Assembly: GCA_903829085.1 (NCBI GenBank)
Contig: CAIKOL010000256.1
Span: 1 to 33,511, forward strand
Direction: 5' to 3'
Source of the DNA: an uncultured Anaerolineales bacterium
GTDB lineage: Bacteria; Chloroflexota; Anaerolineae; Anaerolineales; Villigracilaceae
DNA: 33,511 nucleotides
In this document: positions 24,109 through 30,015 of the stretch, in pieces
How positions within the stretch are numbered: the first letter of the stretch is position 1
Layout of the letters: each line of letters begins with the position of its first letter
Notes under the pieces: model-generated
Databases searched by the model: none
Seen by the model: the letters and a program-made list of their open reading frames with translations, nothing else
What the model was told of the DNA's origin: nothing
Made by a program: the position numbers and the translations under genes

Positions 24109-24804
24109 TTATTGCAAATGGATAAGTCCGGTGCGAATGGCAAATTTAACCAGTTCCGTCCTTGAATGCATTTTGAGCTTGTGCATGATCCGTTCTCGAT
24201 GACGGGCGATCGTTTTCGGGCTGAGTTCGAGTTGCTGCCCGATCTGCTGGTTATTCAGTCCATGCGCCACCAGTTCAAGCACCTGGCGCTCCCGCAAGCT
24301 AAGCACATCCAGCCCAATGACATCCGCCTCATCCATTTCGACCGGCAACGATGTCTGAGTTGCAGAAGACTGGCGTGCCAGCCGCTGGTAATCCTCAAGC
24401 AACCAGCGTGCCAGGGCCGGTTGGAGAAAAACATTTCCCGCGGATATTGCATGGATGGCCGCGATAAGATCATCCCCGGCAGCTTGCTTGGTAATGTAAC
24501 CAGACGCGCCGGCAGCCAGCATTTGCATGAAATACTGTTTATCATCGTGGACAGTTAAGGCCAGGATCAGGCATTTTGGACACAGGACGCGCAAGCGTCG
24601 GGTGGCTTCCAATCCGTCGACGCCGGGCATGGTGATATCCATCAGGATCACATCTGGATGTGTAGCCATGGCGCCGCTGACTGCTCCTTCCCCATCGCTG
24701 GCTTCGGCCACTACTTCGAAATCTTCCTGGGTCTGCAAGAAGTTCTTTAAGCCGACCCGCACAACTTCATGGTCATCCACAAGCATTAATCGAATTTTTT
24801 TCAT
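24109..24804 (-). CDS. NarL/LuxR-family response regulator
   Basis: 231 residues: receiver domain with the acidic pair DDH (about 10-12), phospho-acceptor D56 in VILMDITMPGVDG, and K in the ITKQAAGDD region. A linker leads to a C-terminal LuxR-type helix-turn-helix LSLRERQVLELVAHGLNNQQIGQQL and KTIARHRERIMHKL. It lies 28 bp after the sensor kinase on the same strand, so the two form a cognate pair. It is 87 bp before ccmE and may be co-transcribed with the ccm operon. TTGGG-N8-CCCAA boxes near the kinase and cytochrome genes are candidate binding sites, by inference. Confidence 0.92.
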   Translation of the reverse strand: MKKIRLMLVDDHEVVRVGLKNFLQTQEDFEVVAEASDGEGAVSGAMATHPDVILMDITMPGVDGLEATRRLRVLCPKCLILALTVHDDKQYFMQMLAAGASGYITKQAAGDDLIAAIHAISAGNVFLQPALARWLLEDYQRLARQSSATQTSLPVEMDEADVIGLDVLSLRERQVLELVAHGLNNQQIGQQLELSPKTIARHRERIMHKLKMHSRTELVKFAIRTGLIHLQ

Positions 24805-24832: not shown

Positions 24833-26320
24833 TTAAGGGAGGATATCAAAGACAGGCACAACTACTTCAACGACCGTTCCTTTGCCCGGCTTCGATTCGA
24901 TACTTAATTGACCGCCAACCGATTCGACCCGTTCCCGCATTCCAGCCAGCCCCCAACCGCGCGGCGGGGCGAATGATTGTACAGGATTAAAACCGACGCC
25001 AGGGTCGGAAATATTCAGGGTGATCTCCTGATGCTGATACCCTAATATGATCCGGGCCTGTCGGGCTTCTGCGTGCCGGATTACATTATGCAGAGCTTCT
25101 TGCGCAACTCGAAACAGTACGGTTTCAATTACGGATTCAAGTCGCCGTGCTTTGCCTTGAATCTCAATGGAAACATCCAGCCCTGCCGAAATACTATCAT
25201 CCTTAAGATAATCCAGGGCAGAAATCAATCCAAGGTCATCCAATTGCGCTGGGCGGAGATCATGGACCAGGCGGTAGAGACCCTGCGACATCTGTTTGCT
25301 AAGTGCCTGCAGTCGGTCTACAAGGGCTTTAACCTCTGGACGGTCGCAAACGACAGTTCGTAATGTTGCCAGGTCGAGGGAAAAGGCCGTCAGGACCTGG
25401 GATGTTTCATCATGCAGCTCACGCGCAATACGGGCACGCTCTTCCTCCTGCGCCCGCACAGTGTGCCGCAACAACTCCCGCCTGAGCGCCTCCCGCTTGG
25501 TTAACTCATCCTGGACCCGTTCCAGTGCATCCAGGCGCGCCTGTTGTGCGACGAGTAATTGTTGCTGCCTTTCTCTTTCAACCGTCTGGGTGGCTCGCAA
25601 CAAGCTGAGCGTGATGAACACTGCCAGGAGAGCCCCGATGACTTGAATGGGGAACCCTGTAAAAGTCCGAAAAAGAGTCGAATTCAATTCGCGGGCTGGG
25701 AACATGTCAATGGCAGGCACGAAAAGTTGCGTCAGACCGTACAACCCAAATCCGATGGCGGCCCAGGTCAGGTAAACCATCACACGCCTGCGGTTATTTG
25801 CCAGCGCACTAAGCGCTTCAGCGCGCAAGGCCAGGGCAGCCAGGAACGCCGCGGGTACGGCCAACAGGTAACGGGCCAGTACATCAAATACATTTACCAG
25901 GAGGGTCGTGCCAGTCCGGTAGGTAAACACTGCGCTTGCCAGGATTCCGAGACCGTAAACTGCCAGCACACCCCAACCCAGGTAGGTGACCGTCCCTGGT
26001 TTTAAGGGATGAACACGCAGAGTCAGAACACCATAAATAAGAAGGGAAGAAAACGAAGCGATTAAAAGACCCAACCGCAACCAAAGAAGCCAGGCTGGTA
26101 ATTGGTACCCTTGGGATACAGGCAGTAAAATATATGAATCAAGCCATTCGTAAGCGCCATGGATCATGCCAAAAGCAGCTAACGGGCGAAGGATGCTCCT
26201 CTCTGCCAGGGCGGGGGAACGTCCGGATTCCAATGCCAGCGTAAGGCCCATGCCAAAAAAGGCGAGGCCATACGCAAAATAAAAAACCAGCAAACTTAGA
26301 TCGTAAGATTGACCAACCAT
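24833..26320 (-). CDS. 7TM sensor histidine kinase (HisKA_3 type)
   Basis: The N-terminal ~240 residues form about seven TM helices, starting LLVFYFAYGLAFFGMGLTLAL and containing FGMIHGAYEWLDSYILLP. This is an integral-membrane sensing domain I do not know by name. A coiled coil (about 245-295) leads to the DegS/NarX-type dimerisation helix ARELHDETSQVL with phospho-acceptor His 303. The ATPase domain has the N box VAQEALHNVIRHAEA, G1 SDPGVGF and G2 RGWGLAGMRERV. All catalytic parts are intact. The signal is unknown; His residues in the TM region and the cytochrome neighbours suggest a redox or quinone cue, as inference only. Confidence 0.9.
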   Translation of the reverse strand: MVGQSYDLSLLVFYFAYGLAFFGMGLTLALESGRSPALAERSILRPLAAFGMIHGAYEWLDSYILLPVSQGYQLPAWLLWLRLGLLIASFSSLLIYGVLTLRVHPLKPGTVTYLGWGVLAVYGLGILASAVFTYRTGTTLLVNVFDVLARYLLAVPAAFLAALALRAEALSALANNRRRVMVYLTWAAIGFGLYGLTQLFVPAIDMFPARELNSTLFRTFTGFPIQVIGALLAVFITLSLLRATQTVERERQQQLLVAQQARLDALERVQDELTKREALRRELLRHTVRAQEEERARIARELHDETSQVLTAFSLDLATLRTVVCDRPEVKALVDRLQALSKQMSQGLYRLVHDLRPAQLDDLGLISALDYLKDDSISAGLDVSIEIQGKARRLESVIETVLFRVAQEALHNVIRHAEARQARIILGYQHQEITLNISDPGVGFNPVQSFAPPRGWGLAGMRERVESVGGQLSIESKPGKGTVVEVVVPVFDILP

Positions 26321-26333
26321 TTGTTCTTACTCA

Positions 26334-26351
26334 TTGGGTATTTTACACCAA
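26334..26351 (-). promoter_or_regulatory. TTGGG-N8-ACCAA box centred on the kinase -10
   Basis: An 18-bp imperfect palindrome that matches the perfect boxes at 26442 and 28834 except for one base. On the - strand it contains TAAAAT (26345-26340), a plausible -10 for the kinase gene starting at 26320. A regulator bound here would be expected to repress, e.g. autoregulation. Confidence 0.45.
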
Positions 26352-26390
26352 CATCGGATATTTATTTAAACGCATTATCACGGATAGATA

Positions 26391-26404
26391 GTGACAAAAA
26401 TCAC
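26391..26404. promoter_or_regulatory. CRP/FNR-type box GTGA-N6-TCAC
   Basis: GTGACAAAAATCAC has the exact CRP/FNR-family core spacing. Its centre is 52.5 bp from the first base of the proposed kinase -10, the same distance as the box upstream of the six-haem gene has from its -10. The regulator gene is not in the window. Confidence 0.5.
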
Positions 26405-26441
26405 GTAGGTTTGCCTCATTTTCACCTGTAATTAATCGTTG

Positions 26442-26459
26442 TTGGGGTCATAAACCCAA
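26442..26459. promoter_or_regulatory. TTGGG-N8-CCCAA box (perfect)
   Basis: TTGGGGTCATAAACCCAA. The same two half-sites and spacing recur at 28834-28851 upstream of the six-haem cytochrome gene. It may be a binding site of the adjacent NarL-family regulator. Confidence 0.5.
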
Positions 26460-26462
26460 CTA

Positions 26463-26480
26463 TTGGCATTATATACCCAA
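26463..26480. promoter_or_regulatory. TTGGC-N8-CCCAA box, 21 bp from the previous one
   Basis: TTGGCATTATATACCCAA differs from the consensus by one base. It begins 21 bp after the perfect box, i.e. two helical turns, so two dimers would sit on the same DNA face. The AT-rich spacer contains a possible -10 (TATATA). Confidence 0.4.
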
Positions 26481-26517
26481 ATCTGGCTGGGCTATCCATA
26501 GGCTGAATATTCAATAA

Positions 26518-26877
26518 CTTGGGTCAGGTGAAACAAAAAAACACCTCGAACTTGCTGGTGTTTGGATTCACCAAATTGAGATAAATCGCCGTTATTCATT
26601 TTTCACTTATTGGGATGCTTCCATCGCACCCATCTTCCAGTCCAGGTGCGGGATGTGCTGTGGGGCCTCTCTTGCAACAAATGGGCCTTCATTTGCCAGC
26701 CATGTAGATGCCCTGCGGGGTGCCAATGATGGTACCGTGATCTTCCTGGGGGACGCAGACGGCAACGAGTTGATGCAAATCCAATCCGCTGGATATCATT
26801 CAGCCCAGTTAAGCCCGAAAGAATTGACTGCAGTGAAGAATTGGATAGCGTTCTGGAGCCCTTTAATAATAGATTAA
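26518..26877 (+). pseudogene. Remnant of a c-type cytochrome domain
   Basis: The + frame is open from a stop at 26515 to the stop at 26875-26877, but has no start codon or ribosome site before ATG 26653, which lies inside the domain. Its translation, YWDASIAPIFQSRCGMCC, then HVDALRGANDGTVI and LMQIQSAGYHSAQLSPKEL, aligns along its length with the last domain of the next gene (YVANIKPIFDAECIVCH, GVMKGGKDGAIV, IIKIQSAAHFHNATPEEL). The haem motif CIVCH has become CGMCC, losing the axial His, and the 5' part is gone. It is best read as a decayed paralogue or duplication of that domain. Confidence 0.65.
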
Positions 26878-26883
26878 AATCTC

Positions 26884-26912
26884 TTGAGAAATCAATTAAA
26901 GAAGAGTAAAAT
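26884..26912 (+). promoter_or_regulatory. Promoter of the nine-haem cytochrome gene
   Basis: TTGAGA, 17 bp, TAAAAT. The predicted start near 26918-26919 places a 7-9 bp stem at the very 5' end of the message and leaves a leader of ~42 bases with GGAGG before ATG 26961. Confidence 0.6.
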
Positions 26913-26915
26913 GAT

Positions 26916-26946
26916 AAGGTCTGGTTAATCCAGACCTTGCCATTTT
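26916..26946 (+). terminator. Hairpin plus T run in front of the nine-haem gene
   Basis: AAGGTCTGG/CCAGACCTT (9 bp, loop TTAAT) followed by GCCATTTTT. It may end read-through from the remnant gene, or form a stabilising 5' stem on the message starting just before it. Confidence 0.5.
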
Positions 26947-26960
26947 TGGCGGAGGATACA

Positions 26961-28655
26961 ATGAAGAAATTTGGTAATTGGCTGAAACGTATTTTTTTCC
27001 CACCTGCAACTGCACCTCTTTCCCTCCGCATACTTCCTTATGCAATACTGGCCATCCTGGCGATTGCTGTGTTAATCGGTGGGGTTTATGGTTGGGATTA
27101 CACCAATTCCCCAGGTTTCTGCGGTTACACCTGCCATACCATGCCGCCTCAAAATGCAACCTACCTGAACTCCCCACATTCGAATGTCTATTGCACCGAG
27201 TGTCATATCGGGCGTGGTTTTCTGGGTACCGAACTAAGCCGGAAAACCGAGGATGTTTACGAAATCTATTCATATGTCTTCCATACGTACACCTTTCCCA
27301 TTCAGGCAGCCCGCACACGGCCGGCGCTGCAAACCTGTGAGAAATGCCATCAACCTGAAGCTTTTTCAGCAGATAGCCTGCTGGTCATCAATCATTTCAC
27401 CCCCGATATGAATAACACGCCTTTCAATATTTACCTGGTCATGAAGACCGGAGGTGGTTCCAAGCAGCAAGGACTTGGCTTGGGCATTCACTGGCATATC
27501 ATGTCCAAGGTGGAGTATTACACCACCGATCCGTTGAGCCAGAACATCCCTTACATTCGGGTATATAACGATGATGGCACGATAACCGAATATGTGGATG
27601 CCACGGCAAATTTTGATCCTTCTACCATTAAAGAAAGCGACCTCAAGGTGATGGACTGCATTACCTGCCATAACCGGGTGACGCATGATTTCAAGCCCCC
27701 GGCTGATTCAGTGGATAATGCCATGGCACATGGTCTGATTTCCCCGACCATCCCCGAAATTCGCAAGAAGAGTGTGGAAGTTCTGAGTGTGGCCTATACC
27801 TCCCAGCCGGAGGCGATGTCTGGAATTGCCGGTTTGGGAAACTATTACAAACAATATTATTCCGATTTCTATACCAGTAATTCAGGATTGATTTCTGCCG
27901 CGATTTCTGCTGTTCAGGATATTTACAACCAGACCGTGTTCATCGATCAAAAAGTGGATTGGACCACCCACCCCAACAACCTCGGTCATATCAATTCGGC
28001 AGGCTGTTTCCGCTGCCATGATGGGAAACACCTGGACGCCCAGGACAATGCCGTTCGTTTGGAATGCAATCTCTGCCATTCCATCCCGGTGGTTTCCACT
28101 TCCCAGGACTTTGTAACCAATCTTGAGATCAGTAGTGGACCGGAGCCCAGCTTGCACCTGAATCCCAACTGGATCAGCCTGCACAATAGTGCTATTGATG
28201 CCACGTGTTCTAATTGTCATACTACTGGTGATCCCGGAGGCACTTCCAATACTTCATTCTGTTCGAATAGTGCCTGTCATGGAACGGATTACACATACGC
28301 CGGTTTCGACGCACCCGCCCTACGGAAAATCATCCTGCCTCAATTACCCACCCCGACTCCCGCGGCGACACCAGCCCCGGTCATCGGTGCTCCCACTTAT
28401 GTCGCGAATATTAAACCCATCTTTGATGCAGAATGTATTGTGTGTCATAACACAACATCTTTACTGGGTGGTCTTGATCTGAGTAACTATACCGGCGTTA
28501 TGAAAGGCGGAAAGGATGGTGCTATTGTCAATCCGGGTGATTCGGCGACCAGTTTGATCATAAAAATCCAAAGCGCAGCTCATTTCCATAATGCAACACC
28601 CGAAGAGTTGGTTCTGATCAAGCAATGGATCGATGCTGGTGCATTGGAAAAATAA
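26961..28655 (+). CDS. Membrane-anchored nine-haem c-type cytochrome
   Basis: The listed TTG start (26937) precedes the ribosome site GGAGG; ATG 26961 is right and gives 564 residues. One TM helix (about 24-46) anchors the protein; the rest should be extracytoplasmic. Nine haem motifs are visible: seven CXXCH (Cys 78, 126, 233, 349, 369, 416, 492), one CX3CH (C54, FCGYTCHTM) and one CX4CH (C434, CSNSACH). The start FCG-TCHTM...SPH...CTECHIG resembles NapC/NirT-type or related membrane cytochromes that take electrons from quinol. After a Pro/Thr linker, a separate monohaem domain (about 475-564: PIFDAECIVCH...IKQWIDAG) ends the protein. Likely role: electron transfer from the quinone pool to an outside acceptor; acceptor unknown. 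Confidence 0.88.
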   Translation: MKKFGNWLKRIFFPPATAPLSLRILPYAILAILAIAVLIGGVYGWDYTNSPGFCGYTCHTMPPQNATYLNSPHSNVYCTECHIGRGFLGTELSRKTEDVYEIYSYVFHTYTFPIQAARTRPALQTCEKCHQPEAFSADSLLVINHFTPDMNNTPFNIYLVMKTGGGSKQQGLGLGIHWHIMSKVEYYTTDPLSQNIPYIRVYNDDGTITEYVDATANFDPSTIKESDLKVMDCITCHNRVTHDFKPPADSVDNAMAHGLISPTIPEIRKKSVEVLSVAYTSQPEAMSGIAGLGNYYKQYYSDFYTSNSGLISAAISAVQDIYNQTVFIDQKVDWTTHPNNLGHINSAGCFRCHDGKHLDAQDNAVRLECNLCHSIPVVSTSQDFVTNLEISSGPEPSLHLNPNWISLHNSAIDATCSNCHTTGDPGGTSNTSFCSNSACHGTDYTYAGFDAPALRKIILPQLPTPTPAATPAPVIGAPTYVANIKPIFDAECIVCHNTTSLLGGLDLSNYTGVMKGGKDGAIVNPGDSATSLIIKIQSAAHFHNATPEELVLIKQWIDAGALEK

Positions 28656-28674
28656 GCAGATGATTTTATACCTC

Positions 28675-28708
28675 AAGAAGGTTGCCTCAGGCGACCTTCT
28701 TGTCTTTT
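28675..28708 (+). terminator. Intrinsic terminator after the nine-haem gene
   Basis: AAGAAGGTTGCC/GGCGACCTTCTT forms a 12-bp stem with one G.T pair and loop TCA, followed by GTCTTTT. The two cytochrome genes are therefore probably separate transcription units. Confidence 0.8.
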
Positions 28709-28788
28709 AAGGGAATAAAGCTTCCCGGGTTTTGGACCAAGAATATCTACAAATTCAAATAGGTGATTCAACAAAACGAACCTGACAG

Positions 28789-28816
28789 TTAAATAGTGAC
28801 ATTTGTCACTATTTAA
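28789..28816. promoter_or_regulatory. Perfect CRP/FNR-type palindrome upstream of the six-haem gene
   Basis: TTAAATAGTGACA and its exact reverse complement flank a 2-bp centre, giving the core GTGACATTTGTCAC (GTGA-N6-TCAC). It lies 168 bp before the ATG and 52.5 bp (centre) before a TATACT -10 (28855-28860). Such length and perfection are unlikely by chance. Confidence 0.7.
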
Positions 28817-28833
28817 TATGACAATTATTCTGC

Positions 28834-28860
28834 TTGGGGCTAATAGCCCAATGATATACT
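28834..28860 (+). promoter_or_regulatory. TTGGG-N8-CCCAA box and -10 of the six-haem gene
   Basis: TTGGGGCTAATAGCCCAA (28834-28851) is followed by TATACT (28855-28860). The box covers the -35/spacer region, so a bound regulator would affect polymerase directly. It repeats the box at 26442-26459. Confidence 0.5.
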
Positions 28861-28983: not shown

Positions 28984-30015
28984 ATGTCAATTAAAAAAGG
29001 TTTGTTTATTACTGCTGTCCTGATCGCTGCTGCTTTCATCCTGACAGCCTGTGCCGGTCCTGCTGGCGCTGTCGGTCCTGCTGGCCCTGCTGGTCCCGTT
29101 GGCCCCACCGGACCTGTCGGAGCCGCTGGTACCAATCCGTCTGCAGCCGACCTGACCTGCACCCAATGCCATAACGATACAACCTTGATAACTGGACCGG
29201 AGACTTCCTATTCGACCTCCGTTCATGCGACCGGTATCGCCTTTGGAATTGCAGCTAGCAGATCAACCTGTACTGGCTGTCATACCGGTGTCGGCTTTAG
29301 TGAACGAATCGCGGCTGGGCAAACAAACCCAGACCTGTGGACGACCACATATGCCAATCCGACCCGCATTGATTGCCGTGCCTGCCACCAGGTCCATACC
29401 ACTTACACCAAGGATGACTTTGCCCTGGAAACCACTGCAGCGGTCCCTCTCTATGCCTTTACTGGGGTAACTTTTGACGGTGGCATGGGTAACCTGTGCG
29501 CCAACTGCCACCAGCCCCGTACAGTCATAACTGCCCCCGCAGCCGATGGCACGATCAACGTTAGCAGCACGCACTGGGGCCCCCACCATGGTCCACAGGC
29601 ATCAATGATGCTCGGTGTTGGAGGCGCTGGTACTGTAACAGGCACTCCCAGTCCGCATTATGCAAACGTTCCTGATACCTGTGTTGGATGCCACATGGGT
29701 GGCGATTCCGTTAACCATACATTGGTTCCGAGCGTCACGACTACCTGCGTCACCTGCCATCCCGGAGCCACGGACTACAACATGAATGGCGCACAGACTG
29801 CACTGGAAGCCAAGATCGCGACCCTAAAAGCTGATTTGACGACCGCTGGCTTGCTGGATAAGGATGGTAATATTGTTGTCGGGAATTACCCCGAAGCGAA
29901 AGCCAATGCCCTGTGGAACTATATCCTCGTAGCCATCGAAGACAAGAGCAATGGCGTTCATAACATGCCCTACGCTGAAGCATTGATTGACGACAGCCTG
30001 GCAGCGTTCAAGTAA
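28984..30015 (+). CDS. Six-haem c-type cytochrome lipoprotein with collagen-like tract
   Basis: 343 residues. The signal ends in a good lipobox (FILTAC), so the mature protein is lipid-anchored on the outer side. Immediately after it comes a G-x-y tract (GPAGAVGPAGPAGPVGPTGP...) of about eight triplets, like a short collagen stalk. Then six CXXCH haem motifs: CTQCH (59), CTGCH (96), CRACH (131), CANCH (172), CVGCH (233) and CVTCH (255), with extra His residues (e.g. HWGPHHGPQ) as possible second ligands. The C-terminal ~80 residues are helical and haem-free. AGGAG lies eight bases before the ATG. Likely partner of the nine-haem membrane cytochrome; the final electron acceptor is unknown. Confidence 0.9.
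   Translation: MSIKKGLFITAVLIAAAFILTACAGPAGAVGPAGPAGPVGPTGPVGAAGTNPSAADLTCTQCHNDTTLITGPETSYSTSVHATGIAFGIAASRSTCTGCHTGVGFSERIAAGQTNPDLWTTTYANPTRIDCRACHQVHTTYTKDDFALETTAAVPLYAFTGVTFDGGMGNLCANCHQPRTVITAPAADGTINVSSTHWGPHHGPQASMMLGVGGAGTVTGTPSPHYANVPDTCVGCHMGGDSVNHTLVPSVTTTCVTCHPGATDYNMNGAQTALEAKIATLKADLTTAGLLDKDGNIVVGNYPEAKANALWNYILVAIEDKSNGVHNMPYAEALIDDSLAAFK

Follow-up and report, generated by a model that had tools for sequence, protein, structure and literature searches.

Equally spaced GTGA-N6-TCAC boxes upstream of a sensor kinase and a six-haem cytochrome gene in an uncultured Anaerolineales bacterium

The window analyzed here is the whole 33,511-nucleotide stretch of contig C256, which belongs to a 3.24-Mb metagenome-assembled genome (MAG, 80% complete) of an uncultured Anaerolineales bacterium. 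The titled relatives used for comparison are Anaerolineales/Chloroflexota MAGs. The genes of interest, together with a gene remnant and a hairpin, are as follows:

24109-24804, minus strand: LuxR/NarL-type response regulator with Response_reg and GerE domains (Pfam)
24833-26320, minus strand: membrane sensor histidine kinase with HisKA_3 and HATPase_c domains (Pfam)
26620-26874, plus strand: cytochrome domain remnant whose haem motif has decayed to CGMCC (58% identity to a section of the L127 locus's divergent operon)
26961-28655, plus strand: NrfH/NapC-like multihaem cytochrome with a C-terminal PSCyt1 domain (Pfam, NCBIfam)
28674-28702, plus strand: terminator-like hairpin 3' of the NapC-like gene (sequence)
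28984-30015, plus strand: six-haem lipoprotein cytochrome with a collagen-like spacer (Pfam, ORF translation)

The N-terminal sensor part of the kinase had no match to any Pfam family. Among relatives, most loci with an orthologous kinase have a multihaem cytochrome opposite it, frequently a lipoprotein whose spacer is collagen-like; in a few, the facing gene instead encodes a lipoprotein that has an ethylbenzene-dehydrogenase-type domain. No haem gene was found in the examined stretch near any of six paralogous kinases. In the six-haem protein of the window, a collagen-like GPAGP spacer separates the lipobox from the haem domain, and the same order of lipobox, GPAGP-type spacer and haem is also seen in many of the relatives' proteins that face the kinase.

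Two kinds of palindromic box and several core promoter elements lie between these genes (sites without a strand are marked as unstranded):

26334-26351, minus strand: TTGGG-type box C (TTGGTGTAAAATACCCAA, one mismatch), which contains the kinase -10 (sequence, alignment)
26340-26345, minus strand: proposed kinase -10, TAAAAT (sequence; invariant in eight aligned genomes)
26391-26404, unstranded: candidate activator site, a GTGA-N6-TCAC box separating the kinase from the divergent operon (exact match; conserved in orthologues)
26426-26454, plus strand: decayed divergent promoter, CTGTAA (26426-26431), 17 bp, CATAAA (26449-26454) (comparison with relatives)
26442-26459, unstranded: box A, an exact TTGGG-N8-CCCAA match that overlies the divergent promoter's -10 (conserved in relatives)
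26463-26480, unstranded: TTGGG-type box B, one mismatch, 21 bp from box A (also in some relatives)
28796-28809, unstranded: GTGA-N6-TCAC box of the six-haem gene, within the palindrome 28789-28816 (exact match)
28834-28851, unstranded: exact TTGGG-N8-CCCAA box belonging to the six-haem gene (conserved in L054)
28855-28860, plus strand: proposed six-haem -10, TATACT (sequence; TATAAT in L054)

The initial annotation had reported the two GTGA-N6-TCAC boxes, the second inside a perfect 28-bp palindrome. Both boxes are exact at these positions, and L054, an orthologue of the six-haem locus, has an exact box as well. The palindrome consists of two perfect 13-bp arms (28789-28801 and 28804-28816) flanking a non-matching TT, and is therefore not perfect throughout. 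The window contains three matches to GTGA-N6-TCAC versus 0.36 expected from shuffles, the third of which (23054) falls within the ccmF coding sequence. Genome-wide, 49 sites were found versus 16 for the pattern-reversed control; nearly all are coding and about half a dozen are intergenic, including both boxes described above, so that the number of boxes by itself is uninformative. Another intergenic box, TTTGTGAGTATTGTCACACAAA, is located at G000:C19:17161-17174 (L005), flanked by a UbiA-type gene and the gene of a 4Fe-4S dicluster protein.

In relatives, the divergent promoter reads TTGATT-N17-TATAAA, placed 29.5 and 52.5 bp from the box, versus CTGTAA-N17-CATAAA here; by this comparison, the divergent promoter facing the kinase-side box is a decayed one. 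The cytochrome remnant lies between this promoter and the NapC-like gene, and in L127 the homologous stretch sits in the divergent operon, directly before a NapC-like gene. Since the divergent promoter has decayed and is followed by a cytochrome remnant, the box at 26391 probably serves the kinase alone in this genome. The hairpin after the NapC-like gene implies that the six-haem gene must have its own promoter, and this gene probably carries its own copy of the module.

The distance from box to promoter is the same at both genes. On the minus strand, it is 52.5 bp from the box centre at 26397.5 to the first base of TAAAAT at 26345; at the six-haem gene, 52.5 bp likewise separate the centre at 28802.5 from TATACT, whose first base is 28855. 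This equality, the core of the initial annotation, is exact and is kept in relatives; in the G008 orthologue, the cytochrome -10 is TATAAT, 53.5 bp from the GTGA box. A generic sigma-70 consensus scan of the window detected neither promoter because each is without a good -35. The -10 elements had been called by eye. In an unbiased scan, the -10 consensus was scored at all offsets relative to 19 exact boxes, and the highest mean was at 52.5 on the kinase and divergent sides alike. On the divergent (cytochrome) side, the peak stays at 52.5 in 14 non-redundant sequences (none of 400 shuffles reached this height), and with close relatives removed a -35 appears at 29.5 (P 0.007), with a second -35 peak at 34.5. 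That side thus has a sigma-70 promoter at a fixed distance from a palindromic CRP-like box (-35 at 29.5, -10 at 52.5). The kinase side gave a z of 4.0 with all sequences; kinase promoters are near-identical among close relatives and hence not independent, and after redundancy removal 52.5 is not significant there (top offset 54.5, P 0.18). The kinase-side scan is therefore not relied on by itself.

When the kinase core (TAAAAT/TACAAT) was located directly, a box with at most one mismatch was found 51.5-54.5 bp away in 14 loci. The exceptions are 40.5, 58.5 and 65.5 (two loci), of which 40.5 and 65.5 are approximately one helical turn away. In L095, L100 and L107, each promoter has one box, 52.5 bp away for the cytochrome promoter and 53.5 bp away for the kinase promoter; as the boxes of a pair are separate sequences, these loci are the strongest support for a shared geometry. 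L098 also has two boxes, and its kinase core was unrecognised.

The same spacing is enriched across the order. The pattern box-N22-TTG-N17-TANNNT matches 50 times across 101 genomes, and its reversed control 5 times. When the gap was allowed to vary between 8 and 38 (31 values), gaps 21-23 hold 50 of 229 matches, or 16.7 per gap versus 6.4 elsewhere (P about 4e-8, or about 2e-7 with identical copies removed; loci related by descent inflate this significance). Could the boxes be bound and the equal 52.5 bp nevertheless be a coincidence, or reflect common descent of one intergenic region, with no single activator setting both? The near-identity of kinase promoters in close relatives is in line with this, and an alternative -10 that lies within the TTGGG box (ATGACA-N17-TAATAG) could be the one used by the six-haem promoter. 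However, the cytochrome-side spacing persists after redundancy removal, relatives with separate boxes hold 52.5-53.5, and the enrichment in 3 of 31 gap values is order-wide, its matches being partly kin. We regard coincidence or descent as the least probable explanation of all.

Conservation was assessed by counting exact patterns within 250 bp upstream of 38 orthologous and six paralogous kinases, in comparison with shuffles. The GTGA box is present in 18 of the orthologues (shuffles, 0.07), absent in the other 20, and absent in all six paralogues. An alignment of eight genomes revealed unchanged GTGA half-sites around a variable box centre, and several relatives have a second, degenerate GTGA box 23 bp further on. 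Conservation at this level supports a function for the box.

The TTGGG-N8-CCCAA palindrome has a narrower distribution. Only two exact copies occur in the assembled genome, both in the window. Within the same 250 bp, an exact copy was found upstream of 17 of 38 orthologous kinases (shuffles, 0.05), or 26 of 38 with one mismatch allowed (shuffles, 0.7), and upstream of none of the six paralogues. A combined GTGA and TTGGG pattern has 12 matches, spread over 9 of 101 genomes and always at kinase or cytochrome loci by coordinates (control, one match). In the window, the centres of the two boxes are 40 bp apart at the six-haem gene, 53 bp on the divergent side and 55 bp on the kinase side; relatives show separations of 53-56, 65-67 or about 75 bp. 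Because its position shifts within the polymerase footprint, a repressor or gate would fit TTGGG better than an activator. We infer that TTGGG-N8-CCCAA is a response-regulator site, and its confinement to this locus makes the local response regulator (24109-24804) the natural candidate for its reader. The initial annotation had combined both boxes in one candidate redox regulon linking sensor and multihaem respiration. The link to respiration agrees with the position of the kinase beside multihaem cytochromes in most orthologous loci; TTGGG overlaps the core promoters at distances that vary, as would suit a distinct local regulator.

It might be asked whether the reader of the GTGA box is the local response regulator, with TTGGG belonging to something else, given that the box precedes orthologous kinases and not paralogous ones. 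We consider this very unlikely: it is TTGGG, not GTGA, that is restricted to the locus, and the GTGA geometry is also found at other genes, among them an Rrf2-type gene and a candidate small RNA, including in genomes in which no orthologous kinase was found (e.g., G028 and G025), which indicates a reader other than the local response regulator.

The first of these wider targets, an Rrf2-family regulator gene (Pfam Rrf2), is also present in this genome on C354 (region G000:C354:2531-2989, L045), with a GTGA box upstream and a -10 at 51.5. Promoters of similar type are located before Rrf2-type genes in G028 and G079. The candidate small RNA (G000:C291:423-440, minus strand, L038; further loci L217-L236 and L287-L316) has a conserved core, GTCTCCTCCTTTGGNGAA, a GGAGAC/GTCTCC stem and a terminator hairpin with two-sided changes in 12 of 12 pairs. 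It has a match in 130 of 400 genomes of the order, nearly always in single copy, and a GTGA box lies approximately 95-112 bases upstream in this genome and in the examined relatives of its family. A comparison with Rfam gave no family at cut-off (best weak match ar14, E 0.35).

Which protein might read the GTGA box? As the initial annotation had suggested looking for, FNR/CRP-family genes do exist elsewhere in this 80%-complete MAG: three clear CRP-family genes were found, on C224, C283 and C92. The C224 and C283 proteins have the R-E-x-x-x-R recognition helix expected for GTGA. Co-occurrence was tried as a guide to the activator and rejected both the C224-type and the C283-type subfamily, neither of which follows the box across relatives; none of the CRP subfamilies occurs in all box-carrying genomes. 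The sole CRP-family gene of G004 is a C283-type orthologue, and that of G013 belongs to another subfamily, without the glutamate. The C283 subfamily remains a lead because similar boxes precede its genes: a TGTGA-type box was found upstream in 11 of 14 entries, some of which are the same gene twice. A conserved TGTGAA-N4-5-NCACA together with CTTTGCCTTAAAGCAAA is seen upstream of C283-type genes (L247-L252, L255, L265, L266, L279), suggesting that these genes may be autoregulated.

As neither the C224 nor the C283 subfamily occurs in every boxed genome, the assignment of the activator to the CRP family is a putative one. The GTGA box could be a real activator site read by a dimer of another family (e.g., LuxR-, GntR- or MarR-type), as no CRP subfamily tracks it through all genomes, its centre is often GTGAC-N4-GTCAC, longer than a plain CRP half-site, and it is off the Escherichia coli class I optimum. 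Set against this are the N6 spacing, the GTGA half-sites and the fixed place upstream of the -35, all CRP-like, as well as the boxes before C283-type genes, and we consider a reader of another family unlikely, though worth keeping in mind. Since the equal geometry is real, kept in relatives and recovered without bias on the cytochrome side, one activator for both promoters is the best reading. The initial proposal of a single CRP/FNR-type activator is partly supported, the family membership being its putative part.

Our preferred reading, to which we assign a probability of roughly two in three, is that a CRP/FNR-type activator near -64.5 acts on the GTGA boxes and that the local response regulator gates the promoters via TTGGG. 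Binding, the identity of the proteins, the direction of regulation and the signal are here our best interpretation of the boxes, their geometry, conservation and neighbourhood. A dimeric CRP/FNR-type activator would bind GTGA-N6-TCAC and act from one fixed position; a box centre 52.5 bp from the first -10 base would correspond to approximately -64.5 if the start lies 12 bases after that base. It would act on the kinase promoter and, via the second copy of the box, on the six-haem cytochrome promoter, and in relatives one intergenic box may serve both divergent promoters, or each promoter may have its own. TTGGG-N8-CCCAA over the core promoters would be read by a regulator specific to this locus. 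The LuxR/NarL-type response regulator encoded next to the kinase is the most likely one and, judging from where the palindromes lie, would more probably block than activate.

More tentatively, and with the balance tilted against it, an Anaerolineales activator with the CRP fold, acting from a fixed position some 3 bp away from the class I optimum of E. coli, might run a respiratory regulon of multihaem lipoprotein cytochromes, sensor kinase, Rrf2-type regulator and conserved anti-Shine-Dalgarno-type small RNA, with a separate, locus-specific response regulator gating the cytochrome promoters via TTGGG-N8-CCCAA. The preferred reading offers a testable promoter grammar (GTGA box, 52.5 bp, -10, TTGGG gate), together with a list of genes in which the sensor kinase is linked to proteins of surface electron transfer. 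Were it true, readers of metagenomes could predict which cytochromes switch together; the GTGA box also points to a small RNA, so far without a name, that it precedes. In the literature searched, we found no paper on how multihaem respiration is controlled at the transcriptional level in Anaerolineae; Chloroflexi in connection with HcpR, two-component systems or collagen-like cytochromes gave nothing, and neither did a search for DosR-type operator likeness.

Among known systems, a HisKA_3 membrane kinase and a LuxR-type response regulator beside respiratory genes resemble NarX/NarL-type systems. Unlike NarX/NarQ, the kinase is hit by the NCBIfam models in its core only, at 73-78 bits versus cut-offs of 553-578, and TTGGG-N8-CCCAA differs from the NarL heptamer. 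The DosR box has GGG-N8-CCC spacing, and TTGGG-N8-CCCAA shares this spacing with DosR-type operators of LuxR-family response regulators, a possible likeness in which the outer bases differ. We do not assign the locus to the FNR regulon proper: the box is GTGA-N6-TCAC, not TTGAT-N4-ATCAA, the FNR model matched the three CRP-family genes far below cut-off or not at all, and none of the three proteins has an FNR-like N-terminal cysteine cluster.

The closest likeness is to class I CRP/FNR-dependent promoters of E. coli, in which a dimeric GTGA-N6-TCAC-type box also lies at a fixed distance upstream of the -35. Class I sites in E. coli have their optimum at -61.5 and further positions at -71.5, -81.5 and -91.5, and a site at -65.5 worked poorly (PMC10882989). 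Here, the kinase-side departures (40.5, 65.5) are similarly near one helical turn away, whereas the box centre, at about -64.5 from the predicted start, would be 3 bp from that optimum and, unlike in E. coli class I promoters, one box may serve two mirror-image promoters.
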